Shown here: positions 33,816-38,782 of the stretch, piece by piece | How positions within the stretch are numbered: position 1 is the first letter of the stretch | Layout: each line of letters opens with the position of its first letter | Source: Verrucomicrobiia bacterium | GTDB taxonomy: Bacteria > Verrucomicrobiota > Verrucomicrobiia > Verrucomicrobiales > Akkermansiaceae | DNA: 64,000 nt | Direction: 5' to 3' | Assembly (NCBI GenBank): GCA_030432565.1 | Contig: JAUIGV010000003.1 | Coordinates: 186,001 to 250,000 of the forward strand | Translations under genes and position numbers: made by a program | Notes under the pieces: model-generated | Seen by the model: only the letters and a program-made list of their open reading frames with translations | Databases searched by the model: none | What the model was told of the DNA's origin: nothing

Positions 33816-34430
33816 ATGGCCCACACTCTTCCTGAACTCGGTTATCCGCACGACGCTCTTGAGCCCTATATCGACAAGGCAACCATGGAAATTCACCATG
33901 GCAAGCACCACAACGCCTATGTCACCAATTTAAATGCAGCCCTCGAAGGGCATCCCGATCTCGCCGGACTTTCCCTCGAGGAACTCCAGGGGAAAATCGC
34001 AGACATTGCTCCTCTTCGCAACAATGGCGGCGGTCACTTCAACCACAGCCTTTTCTGGAAGGTCATCGCTCCCGGCGGCGCCAGCACACCATCCGGAGAT
34101 CTCGCGGCTGCCATCGATGCCGCTTTCGGATCCTTCGACGCCTTCAAAGAGGAATTCGCCAAAGCCGGTGCCACCCGCTTCGGATCCGGTTGGGCCTGGC
34201 TCGGCGTGAAGGCCGACGGAACCCTTGGCGTTTGCTCGACTCCCAACCAGGATAACCCGCTGATGGGCGAGGCCGCCGGAGTCTGCGGCTGCACCCCCAT
34301 CCTGGGACTCGACGTCTGGGAGCACGCTTACTACCTCAACTACCAAAACCGCCGTCCTGACTACATCGCCGCTTTCTGGAACGTCGTCAATTGGGACGTG
34401 GTTGCCGCCAACTTCGCTGCCGCCAAGTAA
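33816..34430 (+). CDS. sodA: Superoxide dismutase, Mn-type
   Basis: The 204-residue protein carries all metal ligands of Fe/Mn superoxide dismutases: the His in [15 protein letters not shown], His in NHSLFW, and Asp and His in [20 protein letters not shown]. The [11 protein letters not shown] context, with Gly and not the Ala-Gln pair of Fe enzymes, together with GSGWAWL and NQDNPL, marks it as Mn-type or cambialistic. There is no signal peptide, so it is cytoplasmic. A strong terminator follows the stop. Confidence 0.93.
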
Positions 34431-34440
34431 GTTTGTTGCC

Positions 34441-34920
34441 CTACTTTTTACCCAAAGCGCGAAGTTCCTCCGGGACTTCGCGCTTTTTCTTTTCGAGCGC
34501 CTCGATCATGCGGGCAGCGACGGCCGGGACGGTATTGATTTTATCCCGGCGGGGAATGATATCTTCCTTCTCGTGGGTGATGAAGCGGATGACCTGGTAG
34601 TTCCAGGCGGGTTCCTTGAATTCCTTGAGGATTTTGGCGTCCTTCCCTTTTGCGTTGTTATAAATCGCGACCGGCTCGAAGTGAGCTTCGATCAGTTTGA
34701 CGAGGGCGGGGTGGGAGAGGACTTTGGACCCAAAGACCTTGCAGCCACCTCACCCGGGAACTTCTTGAAAAAGAAGCAGGATCGGTTTTCCGGACTTTTT
34801 TGAAGCCTTCAGGGATGCGTCGAGGTCTCGCGACCACTTCACGGTTCCGAGTTCGACCGGTTGTGATGGCTCTGCCTGACAACCGGTTGTGAACAAAAGG
34901 AACAGGAGAATGAATTTCAT
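34441..34920 (-). CDS. Thioredoxin-like selenolipoprotein (VPGUxxC motif, Sec at TGA)
   Basis: The conventional frame from the ATG at 34,920 stops at TGA 34,750-34,752, leaving a 56-residue stub ending ILLLFQEVPG. Reading through that TGA as selenocysteine gives a 159-residue protein to TAG at 34,441. The stub has a lipoprotein signal (MKFILLFLLFTTGC, lipidated Cys14) and a thioredoxin-like start, and the part after the TGA continues the fold (GGCKVFGSKVLSHPALVKLI, then INTVPAVAARMIEALE). The redox motif is therefore VPG-Sec-Gly-Gly-Cys. VPGUxxT/C thioredoxin-like selenoproteins are known, and a SECIS hairpin follows (listed separately). It is probably a membrane-anchored thiol or peroxide redox enzyme. 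It converges with sodA. Confidence 0.85.
34454..34493 (+). terminator. sodA terminator embedded in the neighbouring gene
   Basis: A perfect 12-base-pair stem (34,454-34,465 with 34,475-34,486), a nine-base loop and a T-rich tail form a classic terminator 23 bases after the sodA stop. The same bases encode the last codons of the minus-strand selenoprotein gene (VPEELRALGK region). Confidence 0.9.
34718..34739 (-). promoter_or_regulatory. Bacterial SECIS element after the TGA codon
   Basis: Ten bases after the TGA the message can fold AGGUCUUUG (34,739-34,731) against CAAAGUCCU (34,726-34,718), with a single U-U mismatch and the four-base loop GGUC at 20-23 bases past the TGA. Bacterial SECIS elements place a short stem-loop with a G in the first loop positions 16-37 bases from the UGA, and the E. 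coli fdhF element also presents GGUC in its loop with an unpaired U in the stem. This should recruit SelB. Confidence 0.8.
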
Positions 34921-35000: not shown

Positions 35001-35810
35001 ATGAAACGACTTTTCCTCGCTTTCGCCGCCTCATTGGCTCCGTGTTTCGCAGATCTTCCGCAAATGTCTGACAAGACGGAATGGCTCGGATATTTCGTGG
35101 GTTGGGAAACCCGCTCGTCGGACTTCGGAATTGGTGCAGACGGCGAGTCCTTGCTCCACCCCAAAAAGAGCGGGAAGCGTGCCGGGCACAAGGAGATTAA
35201 GGTTCACTATATCATCGAAGAGGAGATGAATGGAAAGTGGGTTCGCCGACAGTTCTTAAAAGAGGGCGGACTTACCAGCGAGGCTGAAAAGGGACTCGAT
35301 CCTGAAAAGCCGGTTGTTCTTGTGACGACCGTGACCGGAGAGACCAAGGTCGAGTGGACCCACATTGTCTCTCGCGGGAAAATTAACGTGATGCCCAAGC
35401 TTCTTGAGAAAAAAACGGAGAACAAGATCCGTGTCGGGATGGAGTTTGTCCTTCCCCGCCTTTATCGTTTCAACGAAGAGCCCACCGATCGTGAACTCAA
35501 GAAAAAGGTAGGCGGCGACCACATCAAGGGAGTCCGCTTAAAAGATGGCAAAAAGGTCCGGGTGAAGTTTGACGATGTCGAAGACGATATCACCGCCGGG
35601 GAATTTTTGCAGGATGGGGCCAGCGCAATCGAGGTCAAGTCCGCCGGCATGATGGGCGTCTCCTTCGTGATTGAGAACGGCAGGGACAAGGCCGGCCGCA
35701 TCGATGTGAAGACAAAAGGCCCGCTTTATAATTCCTTCCGTATGACCTGGATGGCCAACGAGGAAAAGTTGGGCACCAAGGATTGCTTCGTCACCTTCGA
35801 GGTGGAGTAA
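35001..35810 (+). CDS. Secreted protein of unknown function
   Basis: The 269-residue protein has a Sec signal (MKRLFLAFAASLAPCFA, cut before DLPQ). The mature part is beta-rich and strongly charged, with repeated Lys/Glu strands (KEIKVHYIIEEEMNGKWVRR; IKGVRLKDGKKVRVKFDDVE) and no cysteine or catalytic motif that I recognise. It is divergent from the selenoprotein gene (81 bases between starts), which could share regulation, and its 3' end overlaps the next minus-strand gene by 20 bases. Confidence 0.65.
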   Translation: MKRLFLAFAASLAPCFADLPQMSDKTEWLGYFVGWETRSSDFGIGADGESLLHPKKSGKRAGHKEIKVHYIIEEEMNGKWVRRQFLKEGGLTSEAEKGLDPEKPVVLVTTVTGETKVEWTHIVSRGKINVMPKLLEKKTENKIRVGMEFVLPRLYRFNEEPTDRELKKKVGGDHIKGVRLKDGKKVRVKFDDVEDDITAGEFLQDGASAIEVKSAGMMGVSFVIENGRDKAGRIDVKTKGPLYNSFRMTWMANEEKLGTKDCFVTFEVE

Positions 35811-37403: not shown

Positions 37404-37479
37404 GCGGGATTAGCTCAGTTGGTAGAGCGACTCGTTTACACCGAGTGGGTCGGCGGTTCGAGTCCGTCATCCCGCACCA
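37404..37479 (+). tRNA. tRNA-Val (anticodon UAC)
   Basis: The 76 bases fold as a complete cloverleaf: acceptor stem GCGGGAT pairs with ATCCCGC, a D-arm TAGCTCAGTTGGTAGAGC, an anticodon arm ACTCG-TTTACAC-CGAGT with anticodon TAC at its centre, and a T-arm around GGTTCGAGTCC. The CCA end is encoded. The integrase begins 118 bases downstream in the same direction, so the 3' half of this tRNA is the likely attachment core (attL) of the element. Confidence 0.95.
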
Positions 37480-37526
37480 TATAAATCAAGGGTTTTAGGG
37501 CTAGGGGCAGATCCTTGACGGGCCGA

Positions 37527-37580
37527 TTGCCACTAAAATCGCCATAAATTGACAGTATTTTCTTGGAATTATTGCCAGTA
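37527..37580 (+). repeat. Three phased TTGNCANTA repeats before the integrase
   Basis: TTGCCACTA at 37,527, TTGACAGTA at 37,549 and TTGCCAGTA at 37,572 are spaced 22 and 23 bases apart, about two helical turns each. They lie between the tRNA and the integrase start and could be arm-type binding sites for the integrase or an operator of its promoter. Confidence 0.5.
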
Positions 37581-37597
37581 TTCGGCACTTTTTCCCC

Positions 37598-38782
37598 ATG
37601 GGAAGGTTCGCTGACTTCTTGCCAAGGAAGGACAACACAACCGGGCGGTGGTGTATTTCCGTCCCTGGTCGCCTTTCTCCCACCGGAAAGCGGAAGCGGA
37701 AATACTTCAAAACGAAGGGCGAGGCCGAGTCTTATGGAGCGGATCTGATCAAGTTGGAGAAGGAAAATGCCCAGCTGATCAAGAAGCTGGACGTCAAGCT
37801 GATCGAGAGTGCGGTCCACTTCAACGAGGTTTTTCAGCTCTATGGCTTCAAGGGCTTTCCGGAAGCATGTGAAGCCTTCTTGAAGCGACTGGAAAAGGAG
37901 TCGAAATCCGTGAGTTTTGGGGAGTTGCTGGAGGCCTTCGAAAAGGAGAACCAGGCCAACTGGGGAGATCGGCACCTTCAGGTTTGGAAGACGGTCAAAT
38001 CGCTGGTTGAAAACCATCTTGAATCACCCCTGTCTCTTTTGGACAAGACCTTCTGGAGCAAATGGATGGAGGAACACCGGGTCTCCCGGGAGTGGTCTGA
38101 TCGAAGCTATAACGATTTCTTGAGCAGGTTTTCGACGATCTGGAAATTCGCGTTGGACAATGAGCTGGTCCAGAAGAACCCCATCGAGACCATTCCCAGG
38201 AGACGCTTAAAAACAAAACCGGTTGCGATCCTTTCGACTTCCCAGGTCGAGCAAATCCTCTTGACCGCCTGGAACCATGATCGCGAGATGACCCCCTATT
38301 TTACCATTGGTATCTTTGCGGGCCTTCGTCCGAATTCGGAACTTGAGAGTCTCGATTGGAGCGATGTGAATTTCGAGGAATCCTGGATCCGGGTTGATTT
38401 TGGCAACAAGACGGACACGAAGAGATTTGTTCCGATGGAAGCAAATCTGAAACGCTGGCTTGAACCTTGGTCGGAAGCGGAAGGCTTGGTCACCCCTTCG
38501 AATTACGTGAAAAGGCGGCGTTACATCGTCCGGGGGAAATACCAATCGCCACCCGGATCTTCTGAGGCAAAATGGTCCGAGATTGCCTCCTGGTCTCAGC
38601 GCGATGTCATGCGCCATTCCTATGGCAGCTACTTGGACGGTCTGTATCGAGATCGAAATCTCGTGAAGGAAGCCATGGGCCACACCAATTTCAGAACCTA
38701 CGATCAGCACTATCGGCGCGCGGTTTCTCCGGAGGAAGCGGCGGCTTTTTGGGGAATTGTGCCGCCCGGAGATGAGGGCTGA
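37598..38782 (+). CDS. int: Tyrosine recombinase integrase
   Basis: The 394-residue protein has an N-terminal arm-binding region, a SAM-like core-binding domain (about residues 105-200) and a catalytic domain. The conserved Arg is R244 in AGLRPNSELESLDW; box II is DVMRHSYGSYL (R339, H340), with Asp in place of the usual first His, as in several integrase groups; GH at 361-362 precedes the nucleophile Y372 in DQHYRR. It would integrate and excise the element at the adjacent tRNA-Val. The distance and orientation relative to the tRNA are typical of genomic-island integrases. Confidence 0.9.
   Translation: MGRFADFLPRKDNTTGRWCISVPGRLSPTGKRKRKYFKTKGEAESYGADLIKLEKENAQLIKKLDVKLIESAVHFNEVFQLYGFKGFPEACEAFLKRLEKESKSVSFGELLEAFEKENQANWGDRHLQVWKTVKSLVENHLESPLSLLDKTFWSKWMEEHRVSREWSDRSYNDFLSRFSTIWKFALDNELVQKNPIETIPRRRLKTKPVAILSTSQVEQILLTAWNHDREMTPYFTIGIFAGLRPNSELESLDWSDVNFEESWIRVDFGNKTDTKRFVPMEANLKRWLEPWSEAEGLVTPSNYVKRRRYIVRGKYQSPPGSSEAKWSEIASWSQRDVMRHSYGSYLDGLYRDRNLVKEAMGHTNFRTYDQHYRRAVSPEEAAAFWGIVPPGDEG

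Follow-up and report, generated by a model that had tools for sequence, protein, structure and literature searches.

The window (the whole stretch of 64,000 nucleotides analysed here) carries on its minus strand a frame that begins at an ATG (34920–34918), runs for 56 residues to a TGA (34752–34750), continues for 102 further residues and ends at a TAG (34443–34441). Translation of 34920–34441 gives MKFILLFLLFTTGCQAEP...LLLFQEVPG-U-GGCKVFGSKVLSHP...ELRALGKK, a putative selenoprotein coding sequence of 159 residues (34441–34920, minus strand) in which the TGA (34750–34752) would specify selenocysteine (Sec) at residue 57, within the motif VPG-U-GGC, and in which Cys60 (codon 34741–34743, minus strand) is the presumed resolving residue of a UxxC motif. 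The initial annotation had described 56 residues, a TGA within VPG-x-GGC, 102 residues and a TAG, and translation confirms all of these; it gave the interval without a strand, which translation shows to be minus. A plus-strand reading of 34441–34920 was rejected, as it gives no such protein. The open reading frame listed at the locus under translation table 11 is a 94-residue piece that ends at VPG.

The gene lies between two plus-strand genes. A Fe/Mn superoxide dismutase gene (33816–34430, identified by Pfam) is convergent with it and is kept beside it in relatives, and the divergent neighbour (35001–35810) encodes a 269-residue protein that has no match in a Pfam search and is present in 21 of 27 genomes of the genus. 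A terminator-like hairpin behind the dismutase gene (34454–34486, plus strand) sits inside the selenoprotein gene, at its 3′ end; a pattern scan found this one hairpin, compared to 1.5 expected in shuffled sequences. Elsewhere in the window, 37404–38782 contains a tRNA-Val and, after it, a gene for a phage-type integrase, possibly an integrated element.

Decoding of the in-frame TGA

The openness of the frame behind the TGA is weak evidence alone, since 131 of the 2503 TGA triplets in the window have 102 or more open codons behind them. It is conservation that goes beyond chance. A search of 58 genomes (own genome counted) found the domain with a single internal TGA in 15, and a sixteenth TGA form (L059, in genome G289) came from a search with the family model NF041383 of 387 genomes of the phylum, a sample drawn from a larger set, in which the matches listed are those from genomes other than the 96 with no match and are stronger than the weakest found. 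The alignment comprises 24 relatives, the 16 TGA forms (window copy included) and 8 others. Where the initial annotation had raised the possibility of homologues in which the TGA region does not align with Sec or Cys, the TGA column is a Sec codon in 16 of these relatives and Cys in all eight of the sense forms. K45-P46, F51-QEVPG, C60 and W106-N107 are invariant in the 24, as is the motif VPG[U/C]. Left out of these counts were L009–L011, whose contigs equal those of L014, L015 and L018 in length and were taken as second copies of them, L012 and L038, which make up a partial copy from G003 that starts past the Sec codon, and L062, a 50-residue match with VPGC; the alignments also exclude two decayed copies (L028, L029) and a set of weak hits (L030–L037, L039–L042). 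Across the 13 single-domain copies, dN/dS has a median of 0.110 ahead of the TGA (finite dS in 48 of 78 pairs) and 0.136 behind it (61 of 78 pairs); purifying selection acts on both sides of the codon. A chance open frame was rejected on the conservation of the TGA and the low dN/dS behind it.

The initial annotation's reading called for selA, selB, selC and selD, and the organism's own genome has all four over their cut-offs, on four contigs (selA 489 bits, selB 315.6, selD 386.7 and tRNA-Sec, or selC, 54.4 bits). ARAGORN calls this tRNA SeC with anticodon tca, and selD itself has one in-frame TGA, in CGG-U-ASK. All four genes are over cut-off in 8 of the 15 TGA-form genomes and at least two in every one, many of the assemblies being incomplete; of the 8 Cys-form genomes, G115 has selA and the other 7 lack it. 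In the Sec-form genome G289, selA (L059:83–1399) lies 29 bp ahead of the gene for a two-domain VPGU selenoprotein (1429 onwards) on the same strand.

A bSECIS-like hairpin (34718–34739, minus strand) with a GGUC loop is predicted 19 nt past the UGA, and its core stem pairs 34735–34731 with 34726–34722. The limits given for bSECIS elements in PMC13188914 are a loop of 3–9 nt with G in the first two places, a stem of 4–16 bp, a distance of 16–37 nt from the UGA and an energy of −7.5 or lower; the window hairpin, with its GGUC loop, 5-bp core, 19-nt spacing and −16.4 kcal/mol, lies inside them all. An Rfam search at the locus gave nothing above the gathering score, and against shuffled sequences the hairpin region does not stand out in folding energy (z of −0.98 for the window's own copy). 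Because folding energy was thus uninformative on this SECIS, the case for it was built on synonymous conservation and on compensatory changes. Codon identity, counted over codons whose amino acid is kept, is highest (0.77, compared to 0.51 overall) in eight-codon windows that start 1–3 codons past the TGA, and the conservation of the seven hairpin codons was equalled or beaten by 224 of 20,000 random codon sets. A second rise, to 0.72, at the 3′ end of the gene coincides with the terminator-like hairpin of the dismutase gene (above).

The hairpin alignment includes 15 of the 16 Sec forms (L027 was left out since a different hairpin folded there). The five core pairs are present in 14, 14, 14, 13 and 14 of these 15 genes (69 of 75 cells) and in 2, 2, 6, 7 and 3 of the 8 Cys genes (20 of 40 cells), so that two of the five are also present in most of the Cys genes. 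Compensatory changes among the 15 Sec genes include U-A to C-G in four, and G-C to A-U in the outer stem in three. None of 500 shuffles reached the observed number of paired cells, the number of cells with both sides changed or the covariation score, and two other measures of covariation are unexceptional (changed-pair count 364 of 500, pair-type count 498 of 500); these counts are not probabilities, the sequences being related. When 48 nt are folded, the GGUC loop is unclosed in 4 of the 16 Sec copies (L016, L018, L019 and L027); in L025 the loop is shifted one base out of register, and the L020 hairpin, at −6.6, is weaker than the published limit of −7.5.

Taken with the conserved codon column, these features suggest that the apparently broken gene is most likely read through, its stop codon standing for selenocysteine, and comparison of the sequences makes Sec at residue 57 the nearly certain reading of this UGA. 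That the TGA is instead read as some other amino acid, through a changed code or leaky readthrough and without selenium, is very improbable; it would account for the open frame behind the TGA, but TGA is an ordinary stop here (it ends 13 of 44 long open reading frames picked by script in the window), the sense forms have Cys in 8 of 8 cases, and the Sec machinery and hairpin are present, and we reject it. Least probable of all is a decaying pseudogene whose TGA is plain nonsense and whose product is a 56- (or 94-) residue piece, which the decayed copies in 4 of 27 genus genomes might favour but which is rejected because 16 copies have the TGA at this very codon, with low dN/dS past it.

Family membership, predicted fold and probable export

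The continuation behind the TGA had been called thioredoxin-like from the letters alone, and this is borne out by a Thioredoxin_7 match of 34.7 bits (cut-off 27) and by the predicted fold. The protein matches the NCBI family NF041383 (VPGUxxT type 2) with an E value of 6.1e-61 over positions 1–135 of 287; its 206.6 bits are below the cut-off of 275 because only the first of the two family domains is present. NF041382 (VPGUxxT type 1) matches more weakly (E 7.4e-41, positions 21–163 of 349, 140.6 bits, cut-off 350). The link to the VPGUxxT proteins made in the initial annotation thus stands at the level of the family, but the motif is UxxC, not UxxT, and this single-domain form scores under the family cut-off. 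The window protein and NF041383 have in common the N-terminal domain and the VPGU motif, and both are predicted selenoproteins; the window protein lacks the second, MsrA-like domain (family positions 136–287) and ends at the TAG at 34443–34441, and 13 of 13 copies in the genus stop at the same end or within a few residues of it. Cys, not Thr, stands three residues past U in 24 of 24 relatives, including nine members over the cut-off, so the “xxT” of the family name misfits those nine as well.

NF041383 corresponds to OS_HP5, a predicted selenoprotein family in the review PMC13188914, and GOS_C, described in PMC2398784, is another thioredoxin-fold UxxC selenoprotein with a different model. The family is already known as a predicted selenoprotein; the present analysis adds its single-domain form and the interpretation of the second half as MsrA (below), either of which may be already in print. 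The expectation that automatic annotation would give a truncated hypothetical protein needs narrowing in the same way: an NCBI selenoprotein model exists for the family, so it is the short form that would be missed, to judge from the cut-off.

The predicted structure of the single-domain protein has a pLDDT of 90.1 and a pTM of 0.83, and its best Foldseek match is chlamydial DsbH (2ju5, E 2.5e-5). Among solved structures the nearest in fold are 3f9u (Z 14.0), DsbH (Z 13.4) and the DsbD C-terminal domain (Z 12.3), and the alignment profile finds the same structures by sequence, the best being 3f9u at E 3.5e-4. DsbH and the DsbD C-terminal domain have a like fold at about 20% identity, with Cys where Sec stands here; the NCBIfam DsbH model matches at E 0.011 only. 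DsbH has been suggested to hold the periplasm reducing (PMC5193440). In the predicted structure Gln109 (window about 34596–34594) lies just ahead of the strand at 110–114; 23 of the 24 relatives have Gln there and L059 has Pro. Thioredoxins usually keep a cis-Pro just ahead of the strand that faces the active site, which may be the equivalent position.

A signal sequence (34879–34920, minus strand) appears to end at Cys14, a possible lipidation site. The lipobox is FTTGC, and the lipobox position that has Thr here is usually Leu, Val or Ile. Cys is kept at this column in 12 of the 13 single-domain copies (it is lost in L018). The lipoprotein signal of the initial annotation is plausible with an imperfect lipobox, and the signal sequence together with the Cys14 column suggests an exported, often lipid-anchored protein. 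It is quite probable that this protein is an exported thiol or selenol reductase.

Possible redox partners and loss within the genus

Eleven longer, two-domain relatives (8 with Cys and 3 with Sec) allow the second domain to be compared. A Cys-Phe-Trp followed by a Glu-Val is invariant in all eleven; in three relatives tested, Pfam PMSR matches the second domain with values from 6e-5 to 0.022, one of them over the cut-off, and the exported seleno-MsrA of the own genome (below) matches NF041383 positions 111–237 at 1.7e-13. The two-domain structure model has a pLDDT of 86.5 and a pTM of 0.56, and the structures that Foldseek lists for it include MsrA structures, among them the MsrA domain of PilB (E 2.5e-3), beside DsbD-type folds. 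From the profile matches, the conserved residues and the predicted fold, the second domain looks MsrA-like, and the longer members seem to resemble PilB in coupling a reductase to a methionine sulfoxide reductase. Neisseria PilB (Trx-MsrA-MsrB) and the longer relatives both join a thioredoxin fold to an MsrA or MsrA-like domain, but the longer relatives have no MsrB and their MsrA-like domain is shortened, and in the own genome the reductase half stands alone. PilB is described as recycled by DsbD (PMC6210582).

The own genome has candidates for both sides of such an arrangement. Its DsbD (L097:382–2694, contig C41) has a TGA in ADW-U-ATC with the C-terminal thioredoxin domain read on behind it, and DsbD was matched in 24 of 27 genus genomes with one TGA each. 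Its exported MsrA (L083:2180–2953, contig C34) has 258 residues and an active-site TGA (G-U-FWG) and is over the TIGR00401 cut-off; similar MsrA genes with one internal TGA are present in 21 of the 27 genus genomes, with partial copies in two. A full seleno-MsrA is present in 8 of 13 VPGU-gene carriers (partial in 2, none in 3) and in 13 of 14 non-carriers, and a co-occurrence test over the 27 genus genomes gave no support for a pairing. Derivation of the VPGU protein and seleno-MsrA by splitting of a two-domain gene is not favoured; G289 and G053 have the two-domain form and a separate MsrA match, each of these matches having an in-frame TGA (that of G053 has two TGA codons and a TAA).

The pneumococcal lipoproteins Etrx1 and Etrx2, which serve the exported SpMsrAB2, offer a precedent for separate thioredoxin-fold surface lipoproteins that supply an exported Msr (PMC3914529). 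By our proposal the VPGU protein would likewise be a separate, exported and probably lipid-anchored reductase of the thioredoxin fold; the abstract of PMC3914529 does not mention selenium. From the DsbD–PilB and Etrx–Msr precedents we propose a path that leads from DsbD through the VPGU protein and ends at an exported client, for which MsrA is the first candidate. UGA would be decoded as Sec by SelB, tRNA-Sec and the hairpin directly past the codon; U57 would attack the oxidised substrate and C60 resolve the product, as the UxxC motif implies; the membrane hub DsbD, which has a Sec codon here, would re-reduce the VPGU protein; and the client would be some exported protein in its oxidised form, possibly the seleno-MsrA, a candidate because the longer relatives fuse the same domain to an MsrA-like domain. 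Sec insertion and an exported redox role are together quite probable whatever the client, and the short VPGU protein may help to repair oxidised envelope proteins.

The strongest competing explanation concerns the client only. The same Sec protein might reduce envelope targets in general, as DsbH or the DsbD C-terminal domain would, whether these are disulfides, sulfenic acids or peroxide, and have no particular tie to MsrA; we give this an even chance. The closest solved folds (above) include DsbH and the DsbD C-terminal domain, the gene shows no association with seleno-MsrA (G013, 96% complete, has the VPGU gene and no seleno-MsrA), and a superoxide dismutase gene adjoins it, which is not an operon partner, however, because it is convergent; against a general role, in the closest longer relatives a single chain carries both this domain and the MsrA-like one, whose Cys-Phe-Trp and Glu-Val are kept in 11 of 11. 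MsrA as the main client is a tentative and rather unlikely assignment.

The intact TGA gene is present in 13 of the 27 genus genomes. Between the same two neighbours, decayed pieces lie in four (G002, G005, G009 and G018), of which the copies L028 (G009) and L029 (G005) both lack roughly residues 60–124 and have extra stops, and no recognisable gene was found in four others (G006, G007, G011 and G015), a 23-residue match in G006 (E 0.009) aside; the remaining six are placed in none of these classes. No Cys form was found among the 27. Slightly less likely again than MsrA as main client is the widest form of the proposal, in which the genus would run an all-selenium envelope relay for oxidised methionine, from DsbD (Sec) through the VPGU lipoprotein (Sec) to exported MsrA (Sec), two links of which are drawn from genome content alone; the single-domain form would be the reductase half of a PilB-like fusion, freed by loss of the MsrA domain and repeatedly lost in the genus, where no change to Cys has been observed.

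This selenoprotein family has been little studied, and the gene described here adds to it a short form that the NCBI cut-off now in use would be expected to overlook. Because the longer members of the VPGUxxT type 2 family have a second half resembling MsrA, the family also gains a function that can be tested. If the relay is true, its three successive Sec steps along a single exported route would reveal what advantage selenium brings to the envelope, and why relatives drop the gene instead of swapping Sec for Cys.
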